Part shown: piece by piece, positions 257-60,266 of the stretch
How the letters are laid out: every line of letters begins with the position of its first letter
Position numbering within the stretch: the stretch's first letter is position 1
IMG/VR virus record: IMGVR_UViG_3300030060_001311
Coordinates: 1-64,000 of that record
Direction: 5' to 3' (one strand)
DNA from: a virus
Length of the DNA stretch: 64,000 nt
Made by a program: the position numbers and the translations under genes
The notes under the pieces: generated by a model
Database searches by the model: none
Told to the model about the DNA's origin: nothing
What the model saw: only the letters and a program-made list of their open reading frames with translations

Positions 257-257
257 T

Positions 258-1121
258 TTATCTCCGTGGTCTAAAGCCTGATTGGAACACTTGAGTTAGT
301 GTATCGTTTTGTTGATTCAAAGGCAACCTCGATAAGCCACTATCAAGCATATTATTATTACCCATAGGTACTGCACCGCCTTGATTCATTCCTGGAGCAC
401 TACCGAATTCAGCAGGATCCATTGGTCTTGTATATCCTGCCATAACATTATCTAAAGGTCGTTCGTAAGGTATTACTGTTTCGTATGATCTAGGTGCAGG
501 TGGTGGTATATAAACTTCTGGTGGAGGTGTTCCTGGAGGTCCATCTCCTCCTCCGTCAACAAATCCTGGAGGTAACTCTCCTGTTTCAGGATCTCTAACT
601 ATAACAGGGTTATTAGGATCTCCTGGAACTAAAACTAAATCTCCACCTGTTTCAGGATCAACAAAAGGATAATCAGGTAAGGGGCTATCAGATACAGGAA
701 TATCTACATCGATTACATCACCTATACCAGGATCAAATGGTTGTTGACCTACAAGATTATAAAAATCATTTATATTAAAATCAACCAAGCCTAAGTCTGG
801 AAGATCAAACATAGGAACTGGTTCAGGCGTAGGTGTATTAAATACTTCTGTATATGGATTATTTAAAGGTTGTCCGAATATTGTAGGATTAAAATTTGTG
901 TAATCTATATTTGGTGCTGTTGGTAATGACGCTATTCCTTGCTCTGCTTCAGTTGCTTGTGTATCTTTAAAATCAGCAACGTCTGCTTCATATTGATCAG
1001 TTGCGTTACCTCTAGCAAGGTTCGCTTCTTTACGCATTTCCATAATATCAACTAATTCAGGATTCATAATTCCTGACATATCGAAATCTTCGAACATATT
1101 ATTTGTAAACAATCTATTCAT
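258..1121 (-). CDS. Proline-rich virion-associated protein (287 aa)
   Basis: The start codon overlaps the stop of the upstream 1121-4414 gene as TAATG, so translation is probably coupled. Residues 1-60 look alpha-helical and charged. Residues 70-230 are dominated by Pro, Asp and Gly, including a PPP-rich stretch near 205-215, which suggests an extended linker-like protein. I do not recognise the family. Its place in the run of large virion proteins suggests a structural or ejected protein. Confidence 0.6.
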   Translation of the reverse strand: MNRLFTNNMFEDFDMSGIMNPELVDIMEMRKEANLARGNATDQYEADVADFKDTQATEAEQGIASLPTAPNIDYTNFNPTIFGQPLNNPYTEVFNTPTPEPVPMFDLPDLGLVDFNINDFYNLVGQQPFDPGIGDVIDVDIPVSDSPLPDYPFVDPETGGDLVLVPGDPNNPVIVRDPETGELPPGFVDGGGDGPPGTPPPEVYIPPPAPRSYETVIPYERPLDNVMAGYTRPMDPAEFGSAPGMNQGGAVPMGNNNMLDSGLSRLPLNQQNDTLTQVFQSGFRPRR

Positions 1122-4100
1122 TATAAATTACCTCTTATACCGTTAACGATTGGTAAAAAAGCCTCATTAAATTGTAATCGAGATACTTCCTCGGGAGATT
1201 TAACACGTTTTTCTTCTGTATCATAATATTCTAAAGTATTAGCGATATCACTTAAATAAATACTTTCATAACTATTTAATGTTCTAATAAAATTATTTAA
1301 AGTTTTTCTACCAGTTATTGTATCTACGTATGACTTAAATAAATTTTCGTCTTGTAAAACTTTACCCATAAACCTTAAATTTCTTTCACCAATAAGTTTA
1401 TCTAACGCAGTCATTCGTCTACCGAATTGTGTTAAAGGAGGAATAAAAAATCTTCTAGCATATTCAGTGCCTGTATCGGTAATTTCATCTTTCATTTGAG
1501 CTCTTACTGCAGCTTGTCTTGGAGAACCGAAATTATCATATTCTCGCATTGCTATATCACGAATAACTTCTAAGTTTTTAAAGAAAGAATCTGTTTCGTC
1601 GCCTAGTAATCTTCTGTATACACCTTTAAAACTTAAATCATCCCCTACCATACCTGCAGGAGCAAAACCCTCGTTAAATAATCTATCTAATTTTCGTGGA
1701 TCAAATAAACCATCTGTTTGCATTCTTGTTACAAGATATTTTTTAGCACCGTCTTTTATTTGTGATTCTAAAATAACTCTTTCTGCAGGAGTTGCCATTG
1801 ATAATAAATCATCTAAGAAATCTAAATCATCAATTAACTCACCAGACATTTTTGCTGTAGGACTTGAATCTAAAATTTTACTTACAATATTAAATGGATT
1901 TCCCTCACCATATTTTTGTTCCAATAAATTATATTTTCTATTTAATTTTTCTATTGGTTCAATAACAGTTTCGTTAAAAGCTTTACCTGTTTTAGGAAAT
2001 CCTTTTTCAAAAAATTCTTTACCGAACACTGCTTCTAAAGTTGCTTGATTTTGTTCTATAAACTGTTTATAGTTTTTAGCTAACACATTTGGTGCAGCAA
2101 CTGAACTGTCTAAAAAGTTTCTTTTTATATGATCAATTAAACCATTTTGTATTCCTCTTATTTCTGGAACACTTCCTGTTTCTGTAAGAAAATCCATCAA
2201 CTCATCCGCTTTTGTATTTACTAATGGTTTGTTTTTATTTCCTGTACTTAATAAAAAGTTAATAACTCCTTCAGGCTGTTGTTTTGCCATATCTTTAATA
2301 ACTTGTTTATTAGCTCTATCGTATACCATACGTTGAGCATCAAATAAATCTATTAATTTTTGTGCATCTTTTTTAGGTAAATTAGAACGTATCGTTTTAA
2401 ACATTTGATTTTCTATAGCATCTTGTAAATCTTTTGTTAAATTAAAAGTTCTTAAATCTCCTGGACTTTTGCTAGGATCGATACCTGAACGAATACTATT
2501 TATATCTATTCTTAATTGATTAATTTCAGGCAAGGTTAAATCACCCTCACTATATTTAGTAAGTCTTTCTAACGCTTCTTCACCAAATGTTTCTTTATAT
2601 AATTTTCTTATTTGACCTTTTCCAGGACTTGCTAAACTTCCTGTTTTACCTTCAGCCGCTGTTTTAAAATTTAATATTTGTTTTCTGATAGGTCTAGAAG
2701 TAAATGTAAGGTCTGCTATTCCTGAATCTAATAAAGCATCATCAACAACAGTATTTATTTCATCTTTATAAGTTCTACTTATTTCGTTTATACGATTTGT
2801 TAATCTTGGATAAAGATCAGTAGCTGCTTTTTCATCTAATACTTTAGAAAAAATAGGAGTTTCATCACCGACTGTTTTAATATTATCAATTTTTAAAATA
2901 AGATTTTCAATACTTTCTTCTGAAGTTCTAACAAACTCTTCTTTACGTCTACCCATTAAATTTAACAATTCTCTACTAATTGTTGCACCTGTTACGTTAG
3001 GGTCTAGTTTATCAAAAAGTTTACCAAATAATTTTTGTATAACTTCTTCGTTTCCTTTCATTGCTTCGTCATAAAAATTCTTGTACGCAGGATTATTTGT
3101 GCCTTGAATTAACATAGCTTCTATATCAGCGATAACATCTTCTTTTGAAGCTTTAGCTAATGTTGGTTTATAAGTTAGTTGTTCTCCTAAATCGTTAGTT
3201 AATCCTTCGATAGCTTCATCAATATCTAATAACGTAACTTCTTCATCACGACCTGCAAGAGTTGTTACTTTTTCACCTTTTTTACTTGCCCGTTTACGTT
3301 CTATAGCTGCTCTAATTGAAGCTACTTGTTCTGCTCCTAAATCTTTACCTAAAACAGCTCGGTAGAGTTTCGGTAAACCATTCATAAATGCATCAATCGT
3401 TTGATTACCGCCGTAAGCTAATAAAAATGTCCACCCTGTTTCCTCCATCATATCTTCAATAGAACGATTATGAGCACCGTTTGCAGCTCCGATTAAACGT
3501 TGTACAAATCTTGCACCTGCAGCACCACCTGCTAAAAACACATTACTTGATACACTATCAAAAAATTTTCTTGTTATTGGACGATCTGCTAAAAATTTAA
3601 TATCTTCTTTACGTAAAAAAGCATCAAAATGTTTTAAACCTTTTAACCCAAAAGCTACTTCAGTTCCTATGGTAGGAACTTCTTGTTGAGCAAATTCTAA
3701 AATATCTAATGGTCTTACAGTCGGTGAATCAAATATTTGTGGTTCTTTACCTTCTTCTATATACATAGAACCAAGTGAAGGATTAGAGGGATCAATCGGT
3801 ATGAAATTTCCAGGAAGACTTTCAGCAAATCTTCCTCCGTCCATATTTTCTTTTGCATAATTTAGATCAGAAAATATAACATTGGGCGGTGCTCCTCTTG
3901 CTAATTGATTTCTAAAATTTCTAATTCCAGGAAAATCTAATTCATTAAACGGATTCCATCCTAGATCACCTATTTCTTTAGATGCATCGTAACCAAAAGG
4001 TTTAAAAGGTGGTTGTGGTTCTTGTACGCTTTCAGGATAGTTTCCTCTTACGTATTGTATCTGTCTTCGTTCACGTAATTTATCTATGTTTTGATTATAA

Positions 4101-8909: not shown

Positions 8910-11180
8910 CTATAAAGGTGGTTGTGAATTTATTATATCGTTCATTTTGGTTATATTACTACCTGCTAGTTCATAAAAAGCATTTATATTGTCAGATAAG
9001 GTATTTGTATATATAGTTTTAGACTCATACCACTGATCTTGATCCGTAAGTGCGAGAGTTTGATAAGTATTAAATCCTGGAACAAAACCCATATAAGCAA
9101 TAATTGTATCTTCTGAACCATATTCACCTGTTTCTTCTTGTTGGGCTTCTACTTCTTCTTGTGCTGTTTGTAAATTTTGAGCTATTAAGTCTTCTACCGT
9201 ACTATCTGCATCAGAAGAAGTATCCATAGAACTTATAGAAGTATCTATTTGATCTTGTACTGTATTAGTATTTACCGTAGCTACAACCACTGACGAACTA
9301 ACATCAGTAGAACTTATAGAATCCCCCGTAGAGGAACCAGAAACGGACATAGAACTCATATCCAATACTTGATTAGTTTGCACGGTTGCTGAAGCAAACT
9401 GATCAGACATACTCGGAGAAGAAGTCGTGCTTATACCTGCTGTACTAGAAGAAGCTCCTGTTGAATTCATAGTAATACTATTACCCGACGCAGCACTTGT
9501 TCCACTTGCATGAACACTATTACCTGCTGTTGTGCCACTAACACTTTGTGTGGCTGTAGCTATCGTAGAAGAAACAACTCGTAAAGCTATTTCTCTACTA
9601 ATTGAACTTTCTCCTCGTGTGTTTTCTCTTTCAGCTATTTGAAATTCTTCTTGAAACACTTCTTCAAACTCTTCTACGATTTCTTCTCTTTCAATACGTT
9701 CTTCTTCTATTTCTGCTTCAGCCATACGTTCTTCTATAGCTTCAAATATTTCTTCTACTGCTTCCTCTTCAAATATTTCTTCTATAAATTCTTCTTCAGG
9801 TTCATCGCGTTCTGCAAATTCTTCTTCGTGCCGTTCTTCACGATGTTCTCTAGTTTCTTCTTCAAACCATTCTTCTAATTCTTCTACGTTATTAAATTCG
9901 ATAAAAGTTTCAGGCTCACTATAATCTTCAACTAAAAATGTTTCTTGAAATATAAATTCTTCTATTAGTATGTCTTCTTGATGATGAAACGGTTCGTCAT
10001 GACGAGGGCTAAAATCGTCTATAAAAGGCAAAGGGTCAGGCTCATAAAAAACAATAAATTCTTCTACAAACGGATCTTCAAAATAATCATTAAGGTTATC
10101 TCCAAACTCTTCAAAAGGCGGAAACATTTCTTCTTCGAATATTTCTATAATTTCTATTGGATCTTCAAAACCTAAATTATCGTGCTGTTGATGATGATCG
10201 TCTCTAAATACTCCTGTAGCAAATTGTTCTTGCTCGTCTACGAAACCGTAGTCAACATTTCTGTCATCAAAGAAAGCCACTGATTCTTGTTGTCTGTATC
10301 CAGGACAAAAAGGTGCGTATTGCGGATCTTCATCACATTGTTGGTCATCATATGCCGCCCAGTAATTAGGACATTGTTGACTATAAAGCTGACTTATATT
10401 ACATTGTTGGTTTAATAAAGCATCTGCATAACCTGAACAGCTAGAATCATTTAACGGATCGCTACAATCAACTCCGTTACCTGTGCCTACTCCGTATAAA
10501 CTACCGCCTCCCTCAAGCAAAGTATTAGACGAAGTATTGTTCCAATCAGTATTAACACAGTTATTAGTATTAGTCGTGCCTACATTACATTCATCGTGAA
10601 ATAAATATTGATAAACTTGCGAAGATCCACTACCTACCTCGCCTATAATTACATCATGGTTAATAATATCTAGTTCGTCATACCGATATTCAAAAGTATT
10701 ATTAGACCACAAAATAACTTCAAAACTATTATCACTATTACGATTGTACTCACGCATATCGTACCAACCGAAAATCATTTTACTGTTATCGCCATAAGAC
10801 TTCATACGTGAATTACTGTCTCTAATAAGGTCTGTCCAAAACGGAAACATGGTGTAAGTGTATTGAGAGCCTATGGGATCAGGTGTGTAATCACCGCAAT
10901 AATTATTATAATTTATATTGCCTGTGCCTAAACCGAAATGTAAGCAACCGTTAGTTGCCATTCGTGCAGCGTCAAATGTTTGACCATAAAAAGTAAAATT
11001 AAAAGGTATTGCTATAGTTGTAGAAAGTTGGTCATCCCCAACTTCATAAGCTAGTTCGCCTTCAAAATTACCTGCATTTTTCTGTAATTGAAATAAATCT
11101 TGATTAGCTTCGTAAATATATTGACTAGCTAAATTAAAACTTAATAAAGCAATTAATCCGCAAAATATTCTTTTCTGCAT
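8910..11180 (-). CDS. Secreted NIDO-like, Cys-rich and Glu-rich protein (756 aa)
   Basis: The N-terminus is a signal-peptide-like stretch (KR, then hydrophobic to about residue 18). Residues about 40-200 resemble a nidogen-type (NIDO) beta domain: an ATNGCLHFG strand, an MFPFWTDL block and a FEVILWSNNTFEYRY segment. Residues about 235-300 hold many cysteines with QQC and CP spacings. About 320-530 is a very acidic, Glu-rich region. About 530-660 is Ser/Thr/Ala-rich. Signal peptides are rare on phage virion proteins, so export to the host envelope or cell surface is possible. Its start overlaps the end of the Asn-Thr-rich gene by 28 bases. Confidence 0.6.
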   Translation of the reverse strand: MQKRIFCGLIALLSFNLASQYIYEANQDLFQLQKNAGNFEGELAYEVGDDQLSTTIAIPFNFTFYGQTFDAARMATNGCLHFGLGTGNINYNNYCGDYTPDPIGSQYTYTMFPFWTDLIRDSNSRMKSYGDNSKMIFGWYDMREYNRNSDNSFEVILWSNNTFEYRYDELDIINHDVIIGEVGSGSSQVYQYLFHDECNVGTTNTNNCVNTDWNNTSSNTLLEGGGSLYGVGTGNGVDCSDPLNDSSCSGYADALLNQQCNISQLYSQQCPNYWAAYDDQQCDEDPQYAPFCPGYRQQESVAFFDDRNVDYGFVDEQEQFATGVFRDDHHQQHDNLGFEDPIEIIEIFEEEMFPPFEEFGDNLNDYFEDPFVEEFIVFYEPDPLPFIDDFSPRHDEPFHHQEDILIEEFIFQETFLVEDYSEPETFIEFNNVEELEEWFEEETREHREERHEEEFAERDEPEEEFIEEIFEEEAVEEIFEAIEERMAEAEIEEERIEREEIVEEFEEVFQEEFQIAERENTRGESSISREIALRVVSSTIATATQSVSGTTAGNSVHASGTSAASGNSITMNSTGASSSTAGISTTSSPSMSDQFASATVQTNQVLDMSSMSVSGSSTGDSISSTDVSSSVVVATVNTNTVQDQIDTSISSMDTSSDADSTVEDLIAQNLQTAQEEVEAQQEETGEYGSEDTIIAYMGFVPGFNTYQTLALTDQDQWYESKTIYTNTLSDNINAFYELAGSNITKMNDIINSQPPL

Positions 11181-12259
11181 TGTCTTCTAGTTTTTTGTTT
11201 AGATATAACTACTTTGCTAACAAGACCTACTACGTCTTTTTGTATTTTTTCTCTATTAGGGTTTGAGTCATTTATACAATGTTCTACATATTCATCTAGT
11301 TTAGAACGTTCGTTAATTTCTTCTTTTTCTTTATATTCTTTATAATCTGGTCTATTAGAAGAATTATCTTTCCATGCAACAGTAGCCTCTTTACCTATTT
11401 TACCTTGATAAGGACAAGGAGTACCTGCCATTTCCATAGCTTTAAATACCCTTTCGTCTTGACAAAGTAATGCAACTGATGCTACTTTCATTCCCATGTC
11501 ATATAGATATTTAGATAATTTTAACCTTTCACAATTCATATCTCTTATTGACTTACCACCAGATAAACCAAACACTTGTCCTTGAAAAGCTCCTGAGACA
11601 CCTGTTGTACAGAGGTCTTGTGAGTAAGACATAATACTAGGAGCTATAGCAGAAGCAGGAGGTGCCTCACTTTTTACGTTTTGATTGATTGTTTGCACTG
11701 ATTTCGATTCGTTTATATTTCGATTCGTATTATCAGATTTAGTGTTGTTGTTATTTTGATTAACATTATTAGTTTGTACATTAGAATCTGACGTTGATCG
11801 ATTTACGTTTGTATTAGTGTTCGTATTGTTCGATGTCGAAGTAGAATTATTTGTATTATTAACGTTTTGATTTACCGTTGAATTTACAGTCGATGTCGAT
11901 GTTGAAGTATTTACATTAACATTATTGTTTGTATTGTTTGATGTCGAAGTCGCTGTCGATGTGTTGATATTATTATTCGTGTTGCTGTTGACATTTGTAT
12001 TGCTATTTGTATTTACTGCAGTTGTTGTGGTCGTGTTAGTGTTAACATTAGTGTTTGAATTTGTATTGTTGTTCGTGTTGGTGTTCGTATTAGTGTTCGT
12101 ATTAGTGTTTGTTGTCGTAGTAGTATTCGTTGTATCTAATATATTATTTTCACAATATTGCGTACCGCTATCACATGGAGTCGTGTTATCTTGTTGTGCG
12201 TGAGCATTAAATGCAAAACTAAAAACGAAAAAGCCCAGTAAAGGTAAAATCTTTTTCAT
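11153..12259 (-). CDS. Secreted Asn/Thr-repeat protein (368 aa)
   Basis: A clear signal peptide (MKK, a hydrophobic core, then an AHA-Q cleavage-like site near residue 22) is followed by residues about 40-190 made almost only of Asn, Thr, Ser and Val in NT dipeptide repeats. The C-terminal ~170 residues form a normal domain with cysteines (CTTGV, CERL, LLCQDE, PCP, HCIN, RRQCRK) and many charges. The gene is translationally linked to the following NIDO-like gene. Candidate roles are a surface adhesin, an envelope modifier or superinfection exclusion. None of these is shown by the sequence. Confidence 0.6.
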   Translation of the reverse strand: MKKILPLLGFFVFSFAFNAHAQQDNTTPCDSGTQYCENNILDTTNTTTTTNTNTNTNTNTNTNNNTNSNTNVNTNTTTTTAVNTNSNTNVNSNTNNNINTSTATSTSNNTNNNVNVNTSTSTSTVNSTVNQNVNNTNNSTSTSNNTNTNTNVNRSTSDSNVQTNNVNQNNNNTKSDNTNRNINESKSVQTINQNVKSEAPPASAIAPSIMSYSQDLCTTGVSGAFQGQVFGLSGGKSIRDMNCERLKLSKYLYDMGMKVASVALLCQDERVFKAMEMAGTPCPYQGKIGKEATVAWKDNSSNRPDYKEYKEKEEINERSKLDEYVEHCINDSNPNREKIQKDVVGLVSKVVISKQKTRRQCRKEYFAD

Positions 12260-45166: not shown

Positions 45167-45505
45167 TTATACTTGAAAATGTTTTATATCTTTGTCTTTT
45201 TTCCATAATCCATCTTCTAATTTACCTGTTCGTTGAGATATCTCATCGTAAGCAGCTTTCATGCAATCCTCAAGCGTTAAACCTTTTTGTTCAGCTAAAA
45301 CGATCAAACATACAACACAATCTCCTATGCCGTCTATTAATCCTTGTTTATCACCGTAAGCAAGTGCTCGAGCTGTTTCACCAACTTCTTCTACAAGTTT
45401 CAACATCTGTTTTTCAGGCTGTATATCTTTTCCGTAGATTAATCCACGTACTTCCGCCCACTCAACGATATCATCAACTACTTTATAATAATCATTCCGA
45501 TTCAT
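45167..45505 (-). CDS. MazG-like nucleotide pyrophosphohydrolase (112 aa)
   Basis: The KLVEEVGE block (Glu39, Glu40, Glu43) and the later IDGIGDCVVC block (Asp58, Asp62) are the metal-binding acidic residues of the MazG fold. Family members hydrolyse dNTPs, NTPs or ppGpp to monophosphates. In marine phages MazG has been proposed to adjust host nucleotides or alarmone levels. Here it may also feed the modification pathway at 53-56 kb, but that is inference. Confidence 0.75.
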   Translation of the reverse strand: MNRNDYYKVVDDIVEWAEVRGLIYGKDIQPEKQMLKLVEEVGETARALAYGDKQGLIDGIGDCVVCLIVLAEQKGLTLEDCMKAAYDEISQRTGKLEDGLWKKDKDIKHFQV

Positions 45506-50459: not shown

Positions 50460-50804
50460 CTAGGCTGACCAGTCCCAACCAGTATGAGGAGCAGTTTTTT
50501 GATTATCTTTAGCAATTTTTATATCGCGTTCTTTTAACCACTCATCGAAAGCGTCTCTAGTTTGATCTATATCACCATGCATTGTTTTTAATTCAGACCA
50601 TACACTACGAGCCACTTGAGTTCCATAGTAATAATCTCCGTCACCAAGTTTACAACGTGTAATAATTTGCCATACTCGTTGTTTTGTTAAATTGTAATCC
50701 TTGCCTAGTTGTTCTAAGGTAGTAGAGTCAGTAGACCATTGTTCGTACATCTTTCTATACCTAATCGAGTTTTCTTTAGCTTTTTCTTGTGAGATACCTT
50801 TCAT
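50460..50804 (-). CDS. Helix-turn-helix protein, sigma region 4-like (114 aa)
   Basis: I start at ATG 50802-50804: it has AAGGAA 6 bases upstream and overlaps the polymerase stop as ATGA; an ATG 24 bases earlier lacks this. The STDSTTLEQLGKDYNLTKQRVWQIITRCKLGDG block is a typical helix-turn-helix with region 4 spacing. It may be a phage transcription regulator. It ends immediately before the promoter at 50423-50451. Confidence 0.6.
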   Translation of the reverse strand: MKGISQEKAKENSIRYRKMYEQWSTDSTTLEQLGKDYNLTKQRVWQIITRCKLGDGDYYYGTQVARSVWSELKTMHGDIDQTRDAFDEWLKERDIKIAKDNQKTAPHTGWDWSA

Positions 50805-52666
50805 TTTATTTCCTTTGTTTCGCCCCATGAACTACCAAGTTCCTTATCCACTAGCAGGGGTACTGCAAGTTCTACACAAGTTTCCATTATTTCTGTAATC
50901 TTGTTAGCTTGTTCAGTGTTCTCTACTGAGATATCAACCTCATCGTGGACTTGTAGGTGAGGAACAATTCCTTCCTCCCACAGACCGAGCATAGCTAACT
51001 TCGTCATGTCAGCAGCCGATCCTTGAATCAATCGATTCAGAGCCTTATATGTATATGATCTTTTTAAATTATCACCGTATTTTTCTTGTGCTTCTTCGTA
51101 CGGTAGAGGTAGAGTTCGTTCATATCTATCTTCCCATAGATTAAACCTACAACGCCTACCTGCAAACGTTCGTATATAGCCACGTTCCATGGCTACCCTT
51201 GCACACTGATCTTGTAACCCTCTTATAAAAGGAACTTTATCATGATACTGCTGAAATAAAATCTCAGCTTCTGTATCATCTATACCTAGTTCATTAATAA
51301 GTTTTTCTTTTCCCATTCCATAACTAAGTCCTAAATTAATCGTCTTAGCTTGTTTACGCGGTATGTTAGCCATATCTGCAACGATCTGGTGAAAGTCCGC
51401 ATTCTTTTCTGTGTACTCCTTCACAGCATCTTTAGCTCCTGTTAAGTTCATTCGATCAGCATAATGAACTGTAAGTCTAGGTTCTTGTTGTGAATAATCG
51501 AACACACCCCACTGACAACCGTCCTCTGGGATAAACAAAGAGCGTATTAAATTACCGATCTCTGGATCTCTTGCAGGAACTTGTTGTAGATTAGGATTGC
51601 TATAACTAAATCGACCACTAACCGTGCCTCCACGATCGTTACGCATAGCATGAGCCTCTGCATGTATACGACCATTGAAACAATGTTCTTTAATCATTTT
51701 ATCAATAAATGTAGTTCTAGCTTTATTAAGTTTCCTTGCTCGAACAATAAGTTGTGGTAACTCGTGTTCGTGTCCTTCTAACCAGTCTTTTTGAAAACTA
51801 GCCATACCTTTTGCAGTTCTAGGAAACCATATATTGTTCTTTTCGAAAATATCTTGTAACGATGCATTAGCCCATAGATTAACTTCTGCACCATATTTAC
51901 GTTTTATCTCGACCTGTAGCTTTTGTTCTTCTAATGATAACTTTTTACTAACATCATCAGCTTTTTGTTCATCAATACGAACACCTCGCCGCCGCATTTC
52001 TAATAGTAGAGGAATAAGTCGGCATTCCATGTCGAGTATTTTTTCTAACCCTTGTTCTTGAACTTCGATCTTTAATTTTTGCCAAAGTTTTAGAGTTAGT
52101 GCTGCATCTTGTTCACCATAAGGTCCAACGAACTTAGAAGGTAGTTTATACATTTCTGATTTAGGATTTACCCCAAACGATAAAGCAGCATTTTGTAATA
52201 ACGATTCATCTTTCTTTTCGTTACAGTAAAACTCACCGAGGTTATCTAAAGAATAAGAATACCTATTCTCGTTTACTAAGGGAGCCGCTACGATCGTATC
52301 TAAAATTTTACCACCTACGTCTACTCCTTCTTTACGGAGCCACCCTACGTCGTATAAGGCGTTATGAAATATAACGTCTCGTTTTTCCGATGCTAGAGTG
52401 TTGCGTAACCAACGTAATACAATATCTTCATCAAGATTACCTCCGCCTTGATGACGGATTGGGAAGTAACCTTTCCACCCTTCTGTCGCAACACCAACAC
52501 CCACGATATGTCCACGACCTGTAGCCCATCCTGGACCACAAGTCATAAGATGTGGATCGTAAGTTTCTAAGTCTACAGCTATTGTTTCTGTCTCAGAAAA
52601 CTGAGGAAAAACTTCTGGAATAGACCAGTCACTTGTTGGAGCAAACATAGGGTTTTGTAAAATCAC
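50801..52666 (-). CDS. polA-like: Family A DNA polymerase with 3'-5' exonuclease (621 aa)
   Basis: The exonuclease domain has Asp32 and Glu34 (VDLETYD), Asp106 (HNALYDVGW) and Asp187 (YGEQDAAL). The polymerase domain has motif A with Asp390 (FDYSQQEPRL), motif B (RKQAKTINLGLSYG, 437-450) and motif C with His574, Asp575 and Glu576 (QVHDEVD). There is no 5' nuclease domain. The residue equivalent to E. coli Phe762 is Leu445. This is the replicative polymerase of the phage. Confidence 0.95.
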   Translation of the reverse strand: MILQNPMFAPTSDWSIPEVFPQFSETETIAVDLETYDPHLMTCGPGWATGRGHIVGVGVATEGWKGYFPIRHQGGGNLDEDIVLRWLRNTLASEKRDVIFHNALYDVGWLRKEGVDVGGKILDTIVAAPLVNENRYSYSLDNLGEFYCNEKKDESLLQNAALSFGVNPKSEMYKLPSKFVGPYGEQDAALTLKLWQKLKIEVQEQGLEKILDMECRLIPLLLEMRRRGVRIDEQKADDVSKKLSLEEQKLQVEIKRKYGAEVNLWANASLQDIFEKNNIWFPRTAKGMASFQKDWLEGHEHELPQLIVRARKLNKARTTFIDKMIKEHCFNGRIHAEAHAMRNDRGGTVSGRFSYSNPNLQQVPARDPEIGNLIRSLFIPEDGCQWGVFDYSQQEPRLTVHYADRMNLTGAKDAVKEYTEKNADFHQIVADMANIPRKQAKTINLGLSYGMGKEKLINELGIDDTEAEILFQQYHDKVPFIRGLQDQCARVAMERGYIRTFAGRRCRFNLWEDRYERTLPLPYEEAQEKYGDNLKRSYTYKALNRLIQGSAADMTKLAMLGLWEEGIVPHLQVHDEVDISVENTEQANKITEIMETCVELAVPLLVDKELGSSWGETKEIK

Positions 52667-53019
52667 TTTTTCTTGCTATAAGTAATTACCTTAGTTTTCT
52701 TTGCTGTTGGCTTTTTAGCTTTTGCCTTTTTTGTAGGTGCTTTACCGCCTTCCCAAGCTTCGTTAATATCTGGAGTAGATTTATCGTCTGCGACATATCT
52801 ACCCTTTTTAGTCCTTGCTCGTTTAGGTGCTTTTTTAGATACTTCATAAAGTTTTTTAACTTCGAGTTCTTTATCAAACTTTTCTAAAACAACTTCAGCA
52901 TCTTTAATTGCTTTTTCTAGAACTTCTTCCTTTACAGCTTTCTTAGGTTGTAGTTCTTCCTTTGGTAACGGTGTAAAAAATTTAAGAACTTTTTTCCACC
53001 AACTATCTACCTTACTCAT
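52663..53019 (-). CDS. Lys-rich protein with TKKGRYVADDKSTPDINEAW motif (118 aa)
   Basis: An amphipathic N-terminus is followed by a charged helix and a basic, Lys/Ala/Pro-rich C-terminus. The RTKKGRYVADDKSTPDINEAWEGGK block is one I recall from diverse marine phages at C-termini of basic proteins. The function is unknown; a polymerase accessory or DNA-binding role is suggested by the 4-base overlap with polA. Confidence 0.5.
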   Translation of the reverse strand: MSKVDSWWKKVLKFFTPLPKEELQPKKAVKEEVLEKAIKDAEVVLEKFDKELEVKKLYEVSKKAPKRARTKKGRYVADDKSTPDINEAWEGGKAPTKKAKAKKPTAKKTKVITYSKKK

Positions 53020-53375
53020 TAATAATCCTCCTTGCCGTCTTCAGCAGCATAATTAACATCTTCAGCTTCAACATAAGTTTCACTGACCTCATTAGTATTA
53101 GCTAAAATATATTCTTCAACTAATAATAAATATCTACGTAAGTCTCGAATATCATCGAGTAGACCTGCCTCACCTTTGTAGACCTCACCTGCTTCGAAAA
53201 CATCCCACCCGTGCTTTTCAGACTGGTGTTCTATACGATCGAACTTACGTGCCAACATCATAAAAGCACCTACACCTCCACGACGTCTCCAAGAATCACC
53301 GTACGAAGTCTCTGCTCGTTTAAGAGCTTCAAGATCGTTTTGGGCAACTTCTTTCATATTTTCCCATTTGCTCAT
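53019..53375 (-). CDS. Nmad1/DUF1599-like protein (118 aa)
   Basis: A YGDSWRRRGGVGAFMMLARKFDRIE block and a DIRDLRRYLLLVEEY end resemble the nucleotide modification associated domain 1 (DUF1599) group. It lies next to a thymidylate-synthase-like gene, where such domains are often found. The assignment is by motif pattern. Confidence 0.45.
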   Translation of the reverse strand: MSKWENMKEVAQNDLEALKRAETSYGDSWRRRGGVGAFMMLARKFDRIEHQSEKHGWDVFEAGEVYKGEAGLLDDIRDLRRYLLLVEEYILANTNEVSETYVEAEDVNYAAEDGKEDY

Positions 53376-54463
53376 TTATTTTCTCCTATTTCCGCATTGT
53401 TTAAAGTATAGGCAGTGTCTCTTTTGCGGATCCAATCAAAACAAGCCTCCATCCAGTCGCGAGATTTTATTTTTTGAACCTCTCGATAAGAATTTAAATA
53501 ATCTTTTTGTTTATGATAATAAAAAGCTTTAACCATAGGAATAGCTACATTTGGAAAAATATTGTTTCTCCAGTCAATATCATCGGTTTTTTCTATAATT
53601 TGTTTTGAGTCATACCTAAAAGAATCGAAGTAATCAAAAAAGAATCTAACTTCTCTATTAAAAGAATCAATATCATCAACAATAGGTACAGGTTCATACT
53701 CATCTACCAGATCATAATGATTTTTTATATATTTATAAGTATAAACATTTAATTCAAGGTCTTTAACTTTTTTCCATACAGGAGTATTAGGATAGATATG
53801 AAAACTATCGCTAATTTGAGTATAGTCTCCCATCGGTAGATTTAGATTAGTAGCAATAAATTCTTGTAACATAGACATATGTACAACGTTTGCACCATAA
53901 GCCCCCCAAAGCATATCATTAGAACGATTACAAACAGTCATACATAGTTTGCCATCACGTACCTTAAAATAAATATTCGTATTACAAGGCACATCTTTTC
54001 TTTCAATCTTTTTATTACATGTTCTTGCTAAATCGTCTTTCGGATCCCACATCTGTAAAACTGCTCGTCTTTCATAAGGATTATCTTTTAATAACCCAAT
54101 AATTGCATCGATCTGATCTTTATTCCAATAACTTCTCCATCGCCAACCGTAAGCCCCCCATAAAGTTTTGCCATCGTCTGAAAAATCTTCCATAGATTTA
54201 ACAAAATAGGTTAGTGGTTCTAGGTCGTTACGACCATCGAGCATCCATAGCCCCTCTATAAAATGAAAAAACGGATTAGCATCTCGTTGTTTGATTAAAC
54301 AAACTCTTTCCCAAGGTTTTTTATAAATCGTAGTTACTGGTGTATTAGCTTCATAAGTTACACCATTGCGGCTTTCTTGTACCCTGTATTCGGTAGGGTC
54401 TTGAAATAAATCGATACCTCTTTCTAACGCGTCGTTTACGTTTCTTACATTAATTACTTTCAT
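53372..54463 (-). CDS. Thymidylate synthase / dUMP hydroxymethylase family (363 aa)
   Basis: The catalytic Cys160 lies in DVPCNTNIYFKV, followed by CNRSNDMLWGAYGANVVHMSML with Asn192 in the place of E. coli Asn177, and by SDSFHIY. The retained Asn predicts a dUMP rather than a dCMP substrate. The product could be dTMP or 5-hydroxymethyl-dUMP; the sequence alone does not decide. It is larger than classic ThyA (264 aa) because of insertions. The neighbours at 53019 and 54674 favour a base-modification role. Confidence 0.75.
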   Translation of the reverse strand: MKVINVRNVNDALERGIDLFQDPTEYRVQESRNGVTYEANTPVTTIYKKPWERVCLIKQRDANPFFHFIEGLWMLDGRNDLEPLTYFVKSMEDFSDDGKTLWGAYGWRWRSYWNKDQIDAIIGLLKDNPYERRAVLQMWDPKDDLARTCNKKIERKDVPCNTNIYFKVRDGKLCMTVCNRSNDMLWGAYGANVVHMSMLQEFIATNLNLPMGDYTQISDSFHIYPNTPVWKKVKDLELNVYTYKYIKNHYDLVDEYEPVPIVDDIDSFNREVRFFFDYFDSFRYDSKQIIEKTDDIDWRNNIFPNVAIPMVKAFYYHKQKDYLNSYREVQKIKSRDWMEACFDWIRKRDTAYTLNNAEIGENK

Positions 54464-54681
54464 AAAGTATCTTGATAGCCTCCTACAATTTCGCTAATAA
54501 CATAACGTATATCGTCATGACTTAACATCGGAAGTTTTCTTTTTATAAAAGCTATTGCAATTCGTTCATCTGCGGCTACTTTTAAAAAGAACGAAACTTC
54601 TAAAAACTGTGTGTAATGTATATCTATTACATCACCATACTCTTCTAATAACGTTATCGCTCTATCGCTCATTCTACCCAT
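54460..54681 (-). CDS. Hypothetical small protein in the modification cluster (73 aa)
   Basis: A helical protein (ERIAIAFIKRKLPMLSHDDIRYVISEIVGG) coupled to both neighbours by short overlaps. No family recognised. Confidence 0.45.
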   Translation of the reverse strand: MGRMSDRAITLLEEYGDVIDIHYTQFLEVSFFLKVAADERIAIAFIKRKLPMLSHDDIRYVISEIVGGYQDTL

Positions 54682-55600
54682 ACTTACTTTCTCCTTCTTC
54701 TAAATCTTCTATCATTGGAAGATTATTATGTTTATAAACTGATCTTGTTCTGCCTTCTTTTTTATATATTCGAGAATATTTATCAAACTCACATAAACCG
54801 CCTTCTATTTCACGCATTTCATAATTAAAACCATTTCTAAAAATAATAGACGGCGGTAATCTTTTCTTAACTTGCTCAAATAAATCTTGCATTTCTTCAC
54901 ACCACGGATGACTTTTACGACAATAATCTAATGGTCGTCCTGTTAAACGATTTAATCCTCGCATGGCTCCTGGACCAGCATTAGCCCATGTCATAATATC
55001 TTTTGCATTTTCTAATAAATAAGTGTGTCTTAAATCAGTAACAACTTCATACGCCATGAAAGGTCCCATGTAAGGATAATCTCTAAGAATCACCCAAGCT
55101 TCTTCTAATGAAGCTTCATCTTTAGCTAGAGACTCGTGCAGTCTAGATAAAATAGATTCTTTAGCTTTCCATATATGTGAAATACACTCAGCGACTCCTG
55201 TTACTTTATCCATACCGTTTGGTGTTTTAATAATATAAGCACCTGTAATCCATTTAGGTTGTTTAGTTATAATACTAATTGCTTTCTTTCTGTTCCATCT
55301 TTTTAACAAATCGTAATTTATTAATGTTCTCCCTGTTTCTATTAAATTAAACCAACGAAATATAATCGTAGCCATAAGAACATCTTCATCGTTTCGCATC
55401 GGCTCTCTTATATGCGTTCTAAACCAACGTGTTGTACGATCATCTTCTCTAAACACTTGGCAAAACTTGAATTCCTGCAGAATTGGATCATCGGTCCAAG
55501 GAGAAGGAAGAAGCTGTGCTTCTTTTTTATAACGTATTGACTCACGTTCAGTTTGCCAATAACAATAACGATCCAACTCTGCTGGAATAAACTCAGTCAT
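54674..55600 (-). CDS. HMUDK_hel / aGPT-PPlase-like DNA hypermodification protein (308 aa)
   Basis: The FKFCQVFREDDRTTRWF block (residues 44-60), the IIFRWFNLIETGRTL helix, the LRDYPYMGPFMAYEVVTDLR helix-hairpin-helix-like segment (172-191) and GPGAMRGLNRL (209-219) fit the helical proteins tied to 5-hydroxymethyl-uracil hypermodification (5-hmdU DNA kinase helical domain or the glycosylase-like aGPT-PPlase group). No P-loop kinase is fused or seen nearby. It may act on thymine-derived bases in phage DNA. Confidence 0.55.
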   Translation of the reverse strand: MTEFIPAELDRYCYWQTERESIRYKKEAQLLPSPWTDDPILQEFKFCQVFREDDRTTRWFRTHIREPMRNDEDVLMATIIFRWFNLIETGRTLINYDLLKRWNRKKAISIITKQPKWITGAYIIKTPNGMDKVTGVAECISHIWKAKESILSRLHESLAKDEASLEEAWVILRDYPYMGPFMAYEVVTDLRHTYLLENAKDIMTWANAGPGAMRGLNRLTGRPLDYCRKSHPWCEEMQDLFEQVKKRLPPSIIFRNGFNYEMREIEGGLCEFDKYSRIYKKEGRTRSVYKHNNLPMIEDLEEGESKYG

Positions 55601-56442
55601 TACTTTTTACGCAACACCCAAGAACAATTATTAGCGACTTCAGGATAAAACGTAGCGGCAACAACTCGTAAAAACTGTCTACCGTATCGGTTTTGTAGTT
55701 TATGAAACTGTTCGGGCGTCCACCCTGTTTCAGAATCTTCTTTCATCGCTTTCTTTAAATTAGGTAATTGTATAAACGTTCCTGTAACATCTATTATCTC
55801 GAAGTTTCTTTCTAGTTCTTCTTTTAGTTCTTGAAAACCCCACTCGTAAATATGATCCTCAGGTAGCTTGTCGTTAGAACCATCGTGGTTAGGAGTAGAT
55901 ACAAAAGCTAAACCGTTCGGTCTTATAACTCTAGTCGCATCGTCTAACCATGCCGCAATAAACTCTCTACCCATGTGTTCTATAACTTCGGTCGTCCAGA
56001 AAAAATCTACGCTTTCATCTGCTAGTTTAAATACGGGATCAACAGTCAAGTCTTGTATACGTATTTCACCGTTAAAGTTCTGAAACCACGTAGAATCAGC
56101 TAACTCACCACCTGCGTTAGACCAAAAAGGATTTTCTAACTCACAAGCAGGATCAATATCGTAACCATAATATGATCTAATAATATCTGATTTTTTAACA
56201 ACGTATGCTTTATAAAGATTTCTGAGAGTCCAACACTCACCGCAACCAACTTCAAACGTATCAAGAGGTCGTCCTAGTCGTTTAGCTTCAGCTATACACA
56301 TAGAAGCAATTTTATCGAACCGACTCATATGAGCTATCTCATCAGGTCGCCAATTTGCTAATACACCTGCACTAGCTATATCCATTCTTGTATTTTTACT
56401 ATCGTTTTCATTGACAGTAAGTTTCTTTCTTATCGATGACAT
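55600..56442 (-). CDS. Class I SAM-dependent methyltransferase (280 aa)
   Basis: Motif I is FEVGCGECWTLRNL (residues about 63-76), followed by YYGYDIDP as the acidic ribose-binding loop and VDFFWTTEVIEHM as motif IV/V. There is no DPPY or PC motif, so it is not a classic DNA base methyltransferase. The target could be a modified nucleotide, a small molecule or surface sugar. It shares a 1-base overlap with the 54674 gene. Confidence 0.75.
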   Translation of the reverse strand: MSSIRKKLTVNENDSKNTRMDIASAGVLANWRPDEIAHMSRFDKIASMCIAEAKRLGRPLDTFEVGCGECWTLRNLYKAYVVKKSDIIRSYYGYDIDPACELENPFWSNAGGELADSTWFQNFNGEIRIQDLTVDPVFKLADESVDFFWTTEVIEHMGREFIAAWLDDATRVIRPNGLAFVSTPNHDGSNDKLPEDHIYEWGFQELKEELERNFEIIDVTGTFIQLPNLKKAMKEDSETGWTPEQFHKLQNRYGRQFLRVVAATFYPEVANNCSWVLRKK

Positions 56443-56505: not shown

Positions 56506-58002
56506 CTAGATTTGATAGCAGCGTGTTGTTTTTGGCTCAATCAAATATAAATTTTCTTTTGATCTTGTAATCCCTACATAAAAAACTCTATTTTCTTCGT
56601 CTGGATTTTTTTGATAATTTTTATAAACTCTTGTAGTTATGTCTGTTAAAAGAACAACATTGGTAGATTCTCCACCTTTTGCAGCATGAATCGTAGATAG
56701 TTTTATTCGTGGTTGTTTAGTTATTTTTTCTCCACGTCTTAACATAGCCCTTACATAACTAATTTCTTTAGCACTTAATAAGGTAAAAACATCGTACCAA
56801 CGACCTTCAGGCAAGTCAGGAAAATGACTTTTAAGATCTTCGTATTGCAGTATTAAATCTGTATCTAATAAATCTAGTTTCTTTGGTGTTTGTACTTTTA
56901 CATATTTTAAAATATTTGCACATTCAGCCAATGTAATAGTCTCGCCTTTTAGTAATCTTTCCCAATAAATAACAGCTCTTACTTTTGCTTCTGATATACT
57001 AGGTCTGCCTTTTACTTCAAAAAACCATCCTTCATTCCTACAATACTCATCAACGTCTTCTAATAAATAATTTGTTCTAGCTAATACTAACCATTCACCT
57101 TGATCCATATTAATTAATTCAATCGTCGGTTCCCACCGTACCATACCTTCTTCTTTTCTAGGTTCCCATTCTTTATAAATACGTGAGCCAACTTGTCCTA
57201 TACATTGACTAGCCACTTTATGCACTGAAGACGGAACTCTATACGACTGTTTTAACACCATTGCGTCTGTTGAGTTATCAATTAGATAATCTACATCGGC
57301 TCCTGCCCAACGATAAATAGCTTGGTCGTCATCTCCTGCTACATAAATTTTGTTGGCTTTTTCTGCTAACTTACGTACGACCGCCCATTGCAAAGGAGAA
57401 AGATCTTGTGCCTCATCTACAAACATAACATCTAATTTAGGAATATCACCGTCAACTAAAAAATTTTGTAACATATCTGTATAGTCAACAAGCAATCGAT
57501 CTTCTTTAAATAATTTTAATCCTCTAGCAAAACGTTCTAACTCAAACCAACCGACTGCATCTTCAACCTCATGCCATTGTTCTTTTAAAGATACGTTTCT
57601 CATCCTAGCAAGGTTTTCTATAAACGCAAGACGATCATCATGCGTCATACCAAATAAATGTCCGTCATCAGAAGTTGTCCTACCTGTAAGTTTTAAATTA
57701 AGTTTTTCATTTAAATCAGATATATCTGAATTACTTACTACACTTTCTCTAGTAAGTCCTAGTTGTCTAAAAGCCAATGAATGTAATGTACGGAAAAAAG
57801 GTAGTTGTTTATTAGTAATACTAAAACGACTCATGGCTCTTTCTTTACCCTCGTTTACTGCTTTTTTAGTAAACGTAAAGAAACCAATACGTTCAGGTTC
57901 AGTGCCGTTTTCTAATTCGTCTTCTATTAAACCAAGAAGTGTACTGGTTTTTCCTGTTCCTGGAGGTCCAAGAATCACTTGCGTATGGCTAGGTAAGGTC
58001 AT
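56506..58002 (-). CDS. UvrD/Rep-type superfamily 1 DNA helicase (498 aa)
   Basis: Walker A is LGPPGTGKTS (11-20), Walker B is FVDEAQD (194-200), followed by AGDDDQAIYRWAGA, QSYRVP, KLSTIHAAKGGE and VFYVGITRSKENLYLI. All SF1A motifs are present. It unwinds DNA 3'-5' and is likely the replicative or repair helicase in this module. Confidence 0.9.
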   Translation of the reverse strand: MTLPSHTQVILGPPGTGKTSTLLGLIEDELENGTEPERIGFFTFTKKAVNEGKERAMSRFSITNKQLPFFRTLHSLAFRQLGLTRESVVSNSDISDLNEKLNLKLTGRTTSDDGHLFGMTHDDRLAFIENLARMRNVSLKEQWHEVEDAVGWFELERFARGLKLFKEDRLLVDYTDMLQNFLVDGDIPKLDVMFVDEAQDLSPLQWAVVRKLAEKANKIYVAGDDDQAIYRWAGADVDYLIDNSTDAMVLKQSYRVPSSVHKVASQCIGQVGSRIYKEWEPRKEEGMVRWEPTIELINMDQGEWLVLARTNYLLEDVDEYCRNEGWFFEVKGRPSISEAKVRAVIYWERLLKGETITLAECANILKYVKVQTPKKLDLLDTDLILQYEDLKSHFPDLPEGRWYDVFTLLSAKEISYVRAMLRRGEKITKQPRIKLSTIHAAKGGESTNVVLLTDITTRVYKNYQKNPDEENRVFYVGITRSKENLYLIEPKTTRCYQI

Positions 58003-58147
58003 CTTCTTCCTTTGGTAAATATACTATTACTTCTGATTTGCATTTTGGACAACTTAAATTAGTTTCCATAATGTATTCATAATTCTCATCTTCTATGTCG
58101 TGATCACCGCCCCATGTTAAAGGTGTTTTACAGTGCCAACAATTCAT
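57989..58147 (-). CDS. 52-aa zinc-ribbon protein
   Basis: ATG 58145-58147 overlaps the AlkB-like stop as ATGA; TAG is at 57989-57991, 14 bases inside the helicase start. Cys3, Cys6, Cys33 and Cys36 form two CxxC knuckles. A small nucleic-acid or protein binding ribbon of unknown target. Confidence 0.65.
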   Translation of the reverse strand: MNCWHCKTPLTWGGDHDIEDENYEYIMETNLSCPKCKSEVIVYLPKEEDDLT

Positions 58148-58746
58148 AACCCACTCCTAAAAGTTAAATTAATTCTTTCACCTGCACCGATTAATTCTGG
58201 AATAGAATGGGTAGAAGTCATCTGACTATGCCCATCAAACATGATGGCATCGCCGTGTTCTAATAGATACCAACTTGTTCCCATAGGCGGGTTAGAATAA
58301 GATTTCCAAGGGCTGTTTTTTAGATAACTATCACTTGTATTAGTATGGTCTTTAATAACATACTCATAAGTAGACCACTCAAACACTCTAGGTGCACCAA
58401 AACTAACAGAAAAAACTACATCTTTTAATTTAGGAACTGTATCTGTATGATGTGGTATACCTTCGCCTTGATCAGAATAATAACCACAAAGACAAAAAGT
58501 AAATTCAATATCTCGTTTAAATTGTTTACTTGCTATTTTTTCTGCGGCTATTTTTATTAATTTTATTTCATGCGACCATGGTTCAGGCTCGTATAATTTA
58601 CCAGCATATTCAAAACTAGCATCACCAAACCCACGAGTCGGTCGACCTTTAACCATATTACCTTCAAACAAACGTTCTCGAGGTTCGTCCCATTTATCTA
58701 TTCCGTGTTCAAACTCTGCAAATATATGTTTTATGTGTTTAATCAT
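58144..58746 (-). CDS. AlkB-like 2-oxoglutarate/Fe(II) dioxygenase (200 aa)
   Basis: The iron ligands are His100 and Asp102 (PHHTDTVP) and His180 (STHSIP); Arg191 and Arg197 lie in RINLTFRSG. GDAIMFDG precedes the distal His as in AlkB. The family repairs alkylated bases, though some members oxidise normal or modified bases. Phage AlkB could repair packaged DNA or take part in base modification. Confidence 0.85.
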   Translation of the reverse strand: MIKHIKHIFAEFEHGIDKWDEPRERLFEGNMVKGRPTRGFGDASFEYAGKLYEPEPWSHEIKLIKIAAEKIASKQFKRDIEFTFCLCGYYSDQGEGIPHHTDTVPKLKDVVFSVSFGAPRVFEWSTYEYVIKDHTNTSDSYLKNSPWKSYSNPPMGTSWYLLEHGDAIMFDGHSQMTSTHSIPELIGAGERINLTFRSGL

Positions 58747-60266
58747 AGTAAGTTATCGTTAAAATCTGGTAAGTCATGTGATTCGTCTTGTGCTTTAAAT
58801 TCTTCTATATACCAAACGTTTACTCCTCGTCCTTTTATATTAAAGAAATGTGGTTCTCCATGCAACTGTTTTAGTTTAGATGTTAATTTGTTTCTTTGAT
58901 AATCTTTAAAGTTATGTCGATGTAAATATTCCATTAAATCTCCTAGCCTGAAATAAGTTTTACCCTCATCTGTCCATGGTTTATGTAATAAAAGCTCATC
59001 ACGTTCTCTCGCAGGTCTTTCTGTACAAAAATTCTCTAATAGTTCTAAAAAATGCCCCTCTGTAGAACTTTCTTTAGGAACTTCTACTACGGTTAACGCG
59101 TCTAAGAGTTGCTGGATAATCTGTCTCCAGACGTTTTCCTTAACCTTCTGAGGTATCTTATTTAAAGAATCCATACATTTTCTTTGAAATCTATTTTGAT
59201 TTAATAAGTCATCGGTCTCTAATTCTAACCTTCCGCCCTCAACATCTAAGAACCAAATAGGTGGTTCACTATCTTGTTTAGTTAAATTACTAAATAACGG
59301 TGTGCCACCGTTAGCTCCAATTCCATATTTACGTGTTCGGCATAACGGACTATTACAATGACTAGCTATCGGCTGATCATTACATTTATAAAAATAATCT
59401 TTACGTTGTACTTGCTTACCAACAGTCAAAACTTCTTGTGCTCCTAACGGCGGTTGCATATACGTAATATTAACATCTTCTAATCTTTTTTCCCAATCGT
59501 CTGGATATTTCTTTCTAAGAAATACTCCTACATTAAATAATCCTGAGTTACGTGTGCCTTTAGGAAACCCTTGTACAATCAAATGTTGTATACAAGGCGG
59601 TGCTTGATCTAGCCATTCTATAGACTCGTTTAGAGGACTAGCTTCTAATTTTTCTAAAGCACTAGTTGTAAGTGTTAGTTCAGATGCATAGTTTAAAAAT
59701 TCTTCTGGACTTAATGCTCCACCGTCTTTACCATAGGCGTAACGTGTAGAGTTCTCTCCTCCAAAGTAAGGCATATTTAAGGTGCTGCCTCTATCACCAC
59801 GTTCTAATAACAGTTGTGTTTGTTTAGGAAATATTTCTGCTTGACCATAACCGATTGCCGCGGCTAGTTGTCTAAGCTTTCGTTGTAGCATTGAAGCTGC
59901 AACAGGCTCTTGTAGAAATATATAAATATGTGCTCCTCCACTTTTACTTCGACAAAGTATTAAAGGTAATTCTTGTTTAGCTAATTTTTTAGCTAAGTCT
60001 TTAAGATCAAGTTGATATTCATCAACATCAATCGCTCCCCACACACAGCTATTATTTTCATCAATCGCTACAATCCCTACGCTTTGACGACCAAGCAAAT
60101 GATCTTCCCATAACTTCAAAAGATCTGTATCAGATAACTCTTTTGATATAGTTATGTTTTTACCATTTGCCTTGCCATCTTCTCGAGTTTCATCACTTGC
60201 GGTAAACGTACCGTAAGCTTTTCGCAATCCAGCAAAGCGTGTAGCAAATTTCTCTGCTAACGACAT
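58743..60266 (-). CDS. Archaeo-eukaryotic-type primase, TOTE-like (507 aa)
   Basis: The AEP core has GAIDVDEY with Asp80 and Asp82 and SKSGGAHIYIF with His113, then FPKQTQ. The Cys-rich segment near residues 300-330 (CNDQPIASHCNSPLCRTRK) is a probable zinc site. The C-terminal part looks like a winged-helix (YRRHNFKDYQRNKLTSKLKQL-like). It would make primers for the PolA enzyme. The TOTE conflict-system primases are the group I recall as closest. Confidence 0.8.
   Translation of the reverse strand: MSLAEKFATRFAGLRKAYGTFTASDETREDGKANGKNITISKELSDTDLLKLWEDHLLGRQSVGIVAIDENNSCVWGAIDVDEYQLDLKDLAKKLAKQELPLILCRSKSGGAHIYIFLQEPVAASMLQRKLRQLAAAIGYGQAEIFPKQTQLLLERGDRGSTLNMPYFGGENSTRYAYGKDGGALSPEEFLNYASELTLTTSALEKLEASPLNESIEWLDQAPPCIQHLIVQGFPKGTRNSGLFNVGVFLRKKYPDDWEKRLEDVNITYMQPPLGAQEVLTVGKQVQRKDYFYKCNDQPIASHCNSPLCRTRKYGIGANGGTPLFSNLTKQDSEPPIWFLDVEGGRLELETDDLLNQNRFQRKCMDSLNKIPQKVKENVWRQIIQQLLDALTVVEVPKESSTEGHFLELLENFCTERPARERDELLLHKPWTDEGKTYFRLGDLMEYLHRHNFKDYQRNKLTSKLKQLHGEPHFFNIKGRGVNVWYIEEFKAQDESHDLPDFNDNLL

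Follow-up and report, generated by a model that had tools for sequence, protein, structure and literature searches.

How a phage might hypermodify the thymidines of its DNA without phosphorylating them is the question raised by a gene cluster at positions 53019-56442 of the IMG/VR virus record IMGVR_UViG_3300030060_001311, of which the first 64,000 bases (from a total of 67,621) are referred to here as the window. In phages M6 and PaMx11, thymidine hypermodification proceeds from 5-hydroxymethyl-2'-deoxyuridine (5-hmdU) via 5-phosphomethyl-2'-deoxyuridine to an amino-acid derivative and, to our knowledge, known thymidine hypermodification passes through phosphorylated 5-hmdU. Hypermodification of DNA gives phages a major means of escaping restriction and is also a source of DNA-modifying enzymes, and the window cluster points to a second thymidine route from which the phosphate step is absent. 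Judged by gene content and order, an S-adenosylmethionine (SAM)-dependent methyltransferase (hereafter MT) holds the slot of the P-loop 5-hmdU DNA kinase in this cluster, next to an HMUDK_hel protein and a pyrimidine hydroxymethylase. This slot swap and the gene association are established by sequence, while for the chemistry we infer, at a probability of roughly 55%, a thymidine-hypermodification module in which SAM-dependent alkylation, in its simplest form O-methylation, takes the place of 5-hmdU phosphorylation.

The open reading frames (ORFs) at 53019-56442 form a single tightly packed run on the minus strand, in keeping with the one operon proposed in a first-pass annotation of this DNA, and comprise (lengths in amino acids, aa):

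55600-56442, minus strand: MT, class I SAM methyltransferase, 280 aa (Pfam Methyltransf_23, 4.5e-7)
54674-55600, minus strand: HMUDK_hel protein, 308 aa (PF18723, E=1.1e-43)
54460-54681, minus strand: 73-aa ORF between HMUDK_hel and hydroxymethylase, kept in some relatives, no family match
53372-54463, minus strand: deoxyuridine monophosphate (dUMP)-type pyrimidine hydroxymethylase of the thymidylate-synthase (TS) family, 363 aa (PF00303, 6.5e-21)
53019-53375, minus strand: 118-aa ORF downstream of the hydroxymethylase, kept in nearly all relatives, no family match

The methyltransferase that the first-pass annotation had listed among the operon members is indeed class I by Pfam, and is more than a member: because it fills the kinase slot, it is the key of the cluster. 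The Nmad1-like protein claimed alongside it was not recovered, as neither 53019-53375, 54460-54681 nor any other product matched such a family.

The TS-family product of 53372-54463 carries the dUMP-type Asn that had been attributed to it (N177), at a position that distinguishes dUMP from deoxycytidine monophosphate (dCMP) substrates (PMC8670742) and that was Asn in 258 of 258 HMUDK_hel-linked synthases. In ThyA, Trp83 and Leu143 (E. coli numbering) shield the methylene intermediate, and the window enzyme lacks this pair, having Asp at the Leu143 position and no Trp at 83. Both positions are given as differences between T4 dCMP hydroxymethylase (Asp145 and Val85) and E. coli TS (Leu143 and Trp83) in the structure paper of the former (PMC6400193). 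The Asp was present in all 331 TS-family proteins adjoining HMUDK_hel or MT, and Trp83 in none of the 258 HMUDK_hel-linked synthases, all of which had Phe or Tyr instead. Moreover, the best PDB matches were CMP 5-hydroxymethylase chains (E 1e-23, vs. 1e-12 for the best thymidylate synthase), the best phrog was phrog_5131 (E 2e-103), and the product was 40% identical to that of the M6 gene. A dTMP-forming thymidylate synthase proper was rejected on residues 83 and 143, and by these hallmark residues the gene is assigned to a dUMP-type pyrimidine hydroxymethylase. No ThyX was found in the record, and any detectable relative of the window synthase occurred in 1,126 phage records (about 2% of 50,697).

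The product of 54674-55600 had been described as HMUDK_hel/aGPT-PPlase-like, and the first half of this label stands (PF18723), whereas by sequence or predicted fold the protein itself is neither a kinase nor a pyrophosphorylase. Its predicted structure is all-alpha (predicted local distance difference test, pLDDT, of 89.8), with 8z2n, the PaMx11 gp46 5-phosphomethyl-dU glycinyltransferase, as best PDB fold match (probability 0.97), and the helix-hairpin-helix DNA glycosylases MagIII, endonuclease III and OGG1 as the next ones, all with E above 0.1. Its structure match in BFVD was the 637-aa "5-hmdU DNA kinase" of SP10. Solved relatives sought by sequence were not found, and a scan with the PaMx11 HMUDK_hel alone returned only that protein itself. 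Thirty-five residues were invariant over 21 HMUDK_hel sequences from loci of the MT, kinase and glycosyltransferase types, the window's included. Judged by its model, HMUDK_hel may have a base-flipping, DNA-binding role.

The P-loop reported as missing was indeed absent from HMUDK_hel, and this absence extends to the whole record save for UvrD: a six-frame scan of the entire record (frames of at least 50 codons) revealed a sole Walker A motif, situated in the UvrD helicase (56506-58002). The kinase (PF18748) and the amino acid:DNA transferase (ADDT; PF18724) were absent from the record and from 13 genome-sized relatives (58-84 kb), and both were present in six of six control records. An incomplete genome as the reason for the absent kinase was ruled out, since comparing the record with its own start revealed positions 64123-67595 to be a repeat of 1-3350 (84-96% identity), so that ~64.1 kb is close to a complete genome. 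This repeat points to a genome that is circular or has redundant termini and whose assembly includes strain variation; a run of Ns lies near 66.8 kb in the repeated right end, and the record is listed as linear. A hidden kinase was also sought in the 3.6 kb beyond the window, with a negative result. In the rest of the window no glycosyltransferase partner was found, and no flavin adenine dinucleotide (FAD), pyridoxal phosphate (PLP), radical-SAM or GNAT enzymes were seen in it. The earlier suggestion of a 5-hydroxymethyl-uracil pathway lacking its kinase, with possibly new chemistry, is thus supported by the hydroxymethylase hallmarks, the conserved HMUDK_hel residues and the absence of PF18748 and PF18724.

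What takes the place of the kinase became apparent from gene order. PaMx11 and M6 have the order kinase, HMUDK_hel, hydroxymethylase, with the ADDT gene upstream (and, in M6, two small ORFs between HMUDK_hel and hydroxymethylase), and in their relatives, too, a P-loop 5-hmdU DNA kinase gene immediately precedes HMUDK_hel. Bacillus phage SBSphiC encodes a 636-aa fusion of the kinase (PF18748, 3.4e-24) with HMUDK_hel (PF18723, 1.3e-45), and the hydroxymethylase follows it. In the window and some 200 marine loci the kinase slot is held by MT, the order in the window and its relatives being MT, HMUDK_hel, hydroxymethylase. Like M6 and PaMx11, the window thus contains a dUMP-type hydroxymethylase and HMUDK_hel (36-46% identity) in the same order next to DNA polymerase A (PolA), but of the components of an M6/ViI-type pathway it lacks both the P-loop kinase and ADDT, and has the SAM methyltransferase in the kinase slot. 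Likewise, it shares with SP10 and SBSphiC the HMUDK_hel domain and a hydroxymethylase gene after it, but whereas HMUDK_hel is fused to a P-loop kinase there, that of the window stands alone beside MT, with no kinase domain fused to it or encoded beside it. The stop codon of MT overlaps the start codon of HMUDK_hel (TAATG), by which the two are predicted to be translationally coupled. The gene immediately upstream of HMUDK_hel was MT in 210 loci (some contigs being retrieved repeatedly), with 196 of these pairs overlapping or at most 5 nt apart.

Clustering of HMUDK_hel at 90% identity yielded 90 clusters, of which 50 had MT as partner, 23 the kinase, four a glycosyltransferase plus radical-SAM enzyme, four an FkbM methyltransferase plus glycosyltransferase, one ADDT only, and eight no assigned partner; MT and kinase occurred together in none. 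On a tree of 64 HMUDK_hel representatives, the partner labels required 9 changes (vs. 25.7 when shuffled), and the clear labels alone required at least 5. These partner counts and few changes indicate that HMUDK_hel and the dUMP-type hydroxymethylase are constant, and that the third enzyme is exchangeable.

Several loci with other partners were observed as well. Six marine ones (L266 5894-7932, L268, L286, L382, L383, L386) carry a glycosyltransferase (GT)-like protein and a SPASM radical-SAM enzyme between HMUDK_hel and hydroxymethylase, possibly for a further, sugar-containing modification of thymidine; L286 has an additional fusion of a cytidylyltransferase-like and a cupin (mannose-6-P isomerase-like) domain. 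In another six (L270 5744-8030, L273, L278, L379-L381), an FkbM-type methyltransferase, a member of the 118-aa ORF family also seen in the window and a glycosyltransferase of group 1 come after HMUDK_hel, and then the hydroxymethylase, so that a second, unrelated methyltransferase has been recruited beside HMUDK_hel. L102 (1266-3872) has a GT-like protein and a PIG-L-type deacetylase immediately before HMUDK_hel in an M6-like background with no visible kinase, and L108-L112 (e.g., L108 4822-5969) have a tandem pair of kinase-like genes between ADDT and HMUDK_hel.

MT also has a second genomic setting. Only five of 50,697 phage records contained relatives of MT, representing four distinct phages (AXL3, PW916, MW202510 and MW202621). 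In all five, a TS-family hydroxymethylase lies no more than about 2.5 kb from MT; MT comes first, then a nucleoside triphosphate (NTP) pyrophosphohydrolase, a kinase-like gene or a gap, the hydroxymethylase and a dCMP deaminase. Scanning IMG/VR from the AXL3 protein added 80 further MT loci (91% down to 31% identity), with a hydroxymethylase within 5 kb in 72 of them (61 of 63 where at least 9 kb of sequence was available) and HMUDK_hel in none. Residue 177 was Asp (the dCMP type) in 73 of 73 hydroxymethylases of this C branch, and in the MT tree a single fully supported branch splits it from the U branch (with HMUDK_hel), whose loci were mostly retrieved through HMUDK_hel. The marine cluster is hereby tied to a sister enzyme branch of other phages that includes AXL3, whose DNA resists 35 of 37 restriction enzymes (the two that cut having A/T-only sites) through an unexplained modification (PMC7504290). 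P-loop TMK-like proteins of the AXL3 gp29 family, frequently with an extra C-terminal domain, were observed between MT and the dCMP-type hydroxymethylase (e.g., L115 6220-7203 and L116 6356-6919), and are probable hydroxymethyl-dCMP kinases.

By its motifs and predicted model, MT belongs to the SAM-dependent class I methyltransferase superfamily, with a Rossmann fold, SAM motif I (E-x-G-C-G) and an acidic residue after strand 2 (E64, G66, G68 and D95; Pfam, model and Foldseek). Its motif IV reads TTEVIEHM, and no Pfam match was found in MT to the DPPY-type or PCQ motif or family profile of DNA N- or C5-cytosine methyltransferases. The closest curated families are the O-methyltransferases UbiG (E=0.0098 for the window MT and 4.6e-8 for that of AXL3) and Hen1 (7.6e-7 for AXL3), all far below cut-off. 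UbiG/COQ3 and Hen1 share with MT the E-x-x-E-H pattern and a downstream His, but MT differs from them in its distinct conserved N- and C-terminal motifs and in its neighbours. Structure matches were generic enzymes of class I, among them RebM and AtmM, which are sugar O-methyltransferases; solved relatives by sequence were likewise generic class I enzymes only, and no MT was found in plasmids. E152, E155, H156, H197 and E200 were invariant in 279 MTs of both branches (in the C branch partly by selection, see below), and positions 185, 186, 201, 252 and 271 (N185, H186, W201, R252 and N271 in the MT of the window) differed systematically between the U and C branches, as would be expected if those positions read the base.

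The proposed mechanism would start with the hydroxymethylase converting dUMP into 5-hydroxymethyl-dUMP, which is its best supported step, after which 5-hmdU would enter the DNA in place of some of the thymidine through host kinases and the phage polymerase (DNA polymerase A then replicating with a modified dNTP pool). The glycosylase-fold HMUDK_hel may subsequently bind or flip 5-hmdU in double-stranded DNA and present it to its partner, whereupon MT, as a metal- or acid-base-assisted O-methyltransferase, would methylate the exposed primary alcohol to yield 5-(methoxymethyl)-2'-deoxyuridine, a product that would shield the DNA from restriction. Hydroxymethyl-U and hydroxymethyl-C have the 5-CH2OH group in common, and the sister MT branch could act likewise on 5-hydroxymethylcytosine (5hmC) without HMUDK_hel. 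A methyl ether would be the most economical product, i.e., 5-methoxymethyl-dU here and 5-methoxymethyl-dC in AXL3. More tentatively, and at somewhat below even odds, MT may found a widespread family of hydroxymethylpyrimidine O-methyltransferases, acting on 5-hmdU with HMUDK_hel in marine phages and on 5-hydroxymethyl-dC without it in AXL3, with HMUDK_hel as a general 5-hmdU-presenting module whose partner (kinase, methyltransferase or glycosyltransferase set) was swapped in evolution. The partner swap would thereby give HMUDK_hel, known only as a kinase "helical domain", a testable general role.

A number of points weigh against O-methylation by MT. The synteny counts are not independent, since the marine relatives share ancestry, and an MT-HMUDK_hel fusion was sought and not found. 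The C-branch loci were retrieved by EVIEH- and DHxxE-centred patterns, so that motif conservation is partly selected there; the hydroxymethylase association of this branch is unaffected by these patterns. The PDB fold matches of HMUDK_hel are weak (E>0.1), and so is the hhalign profile comparison of HMUDK_hel with ADDT (E 0.002, probability 13.7), in which the GP[FW]...D and E[IV]E..LC motifs nevertheless line up. The likeness of MT to UbiG and Hen1 lies far below the curated cut-offs, its class I fold matches leave its acceptor unfixed, and its model reaches moderate confidence only (pLDDT 79.7), with residues 186-198, beside the conserved His197, being uncertain. Moreover, no biochemical or mass-spectrometric report on the DNA of any MT-carrying phage was found in the literature. 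Neither was any published report found of 5-methoxymethyl-dU or -dC as DNA bases, nor a publication joining methoxymethyl, deoxyuridine and bacteriophage. The MT link itself was not found published, although an earlier mention of MT in metavirome clusters is possible.

A validated transferase acting on the hydroxymethyl group is the MetaGPA 5hmC carbamoyltransferase, encoded beside a dCMP hydroxymethylase (PMC8670742). The window group transferase resembles it in adjoining a TS-family hydroxymethylase and in its proposed 5-hydroxymethyl target, but the carbamoyltransferase has another fold and donor, acts on cytosine only and has no HMUDK_hel. That enzyme uses 5hmdCTP besides DNA (PMC8670742), which lends some weight to an unlikely, yet the best surviving, alternative, i.e., that MT acts on 5-hydroxymethyl-dUMP or -dUTP before incorporation, or moves a non-methyl group from a SAM derivative, with HMUDK_hel doing a separate DNA-level job. 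The C branch, where MT lies beside the NTP pyrophosphohydrolase, TMK-like kinase and hydroxymethylase in the absence of HMUDK_hel, would fit this as well; the apparent translational coupling of the U-branch MT to HMUDK_hel, in the slot of a DNA-level kinase, would not.

It is rather improbable that a kinase is still required, as in a variant of the M6/ViI pathway in which an unrecognised phage or host kinase phosphorylates 5-hmdU with the assistance of HMUDK_hel, and MT decorates a later intermediate, such as an appended group. HMUDK_hel is indeed fused or adjacent to 5-hmdU kinases elsewhere, and the operon region holds conserved ORFs without family match (73, 118 and 118 aa) that might be invoked. 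Nevertheless, the sole Walker A motif of the record is that of UvrD, PF18748 and PF18724 are absent from 14 records, the FAD, PLP, radical-SAM or GNAT enzymes were not seen in the window, and the C-branch MT occurs without HMUDK_hel or ADDT.

Even less probable is DNA with plain 5-hmU, in which HMUDK_hel would be a degenerate or DNA-binding leftover and MT would have an unrelated role (on a small molecule, RNA or protein). Plain 5-hmU does occur in phages such as SP8 (PMC6449724; PMC7653180), and small intergenic distances are common among phages, but MT and HMUDK_hel have retained invariant residues over deep divergence, MT accompanies hydroxymethylases in two independent backgrounds, and AXL3 DNA is broadly restriction resistant. 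Finally, an ordinary dTMP synthesis operon in a phage with unmodified DNA would account for the TS-family membership, but can be practically dismissed given the hydroxymethylase residues, the best PDB matches to CMP 5-hydroxymethylase and the constant partnership with HMUDK_hel.

The presence of the hydroxymethylase together with HMUDK_hel in pelagiphages is already published: HTVC023P-type pelagiphages of clades V, VIII and IX carry a thymidylate synthase and aG/PT-PPlase1 near PolA, which were read as an M6-like pathway (PMC9599517). These marine podoviruses resemble the window in this arrangement (aG/PT-PPlase1 being HMUDK_hel), but the main text of that study assumes the M6 pathway and leaves the methyltransferase unmentioned. 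The window phage very probably belongs to the same phage group as the HTVC023P-type pelagiphages and, very probably as well, to a phage group that ranks among the most abundant in the sea.

On the minus strand, the genes around the cluster run in the order primase-like, AlkB-like, UvrD-like, MT, HMUDK_hel, 73-aa ORF, TS-family gene, two 118-aa ORFs and DNA polymerase A, with the flanking ones being:

58743-60266, minus strand: primase-like gene
58144-58746, minus strand: AlkB-like 2-oxoglutarate (2OG)-Fe(II) oxygenase (PF13532, 1.4e-14), a neighbour that is not obligatory among relatives
56506-58002, minus strand: UvrD-like helicase
52663-53019, minus strand: 118-aa Lys-rich ORF, kept in many relatives, no family match
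50801-52666, minus strand: DNA polymerase A (PF00476, 5.7e-62)
45167-45505, minus strand: MazG-like nucleotide pyrophosphohydrolase (PF03819, 2.4e-7), about 8 kb from the cluster

The first-pass annotation had placed MazG and AlkB-like genes nearby. Both genes exist, but the MazG-like gene lies outside the operon and is not cluster-specific (a role in the dNTP pool is possible), while the AlkB-like gene is not consistently linked to the cluster, being missing or moved elsewhere in several relatives; AlkB was rejected as a pathway component on account of this inconstant link.

The 118-aa family of 53019-53375 (SYGDSWRRRGGVGAFMMLARKFDR), which has no known family, is conserved on the downstream side of the hydroxymethylase in marine loci of different types, those without MT among them. 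A contig from a bacterial Maricaulis metagenome-assembled genome (MAG; L369) carries primase, AlkB, UvrD and MT in the phage order, and probably stems from a phage whose contig was binned with the MAG, or else hints at the host. Elsewhere in the window, the product of 11153-12259 looks secreted and contains a long Asn/Thr repeat (NTNTNTNT...).

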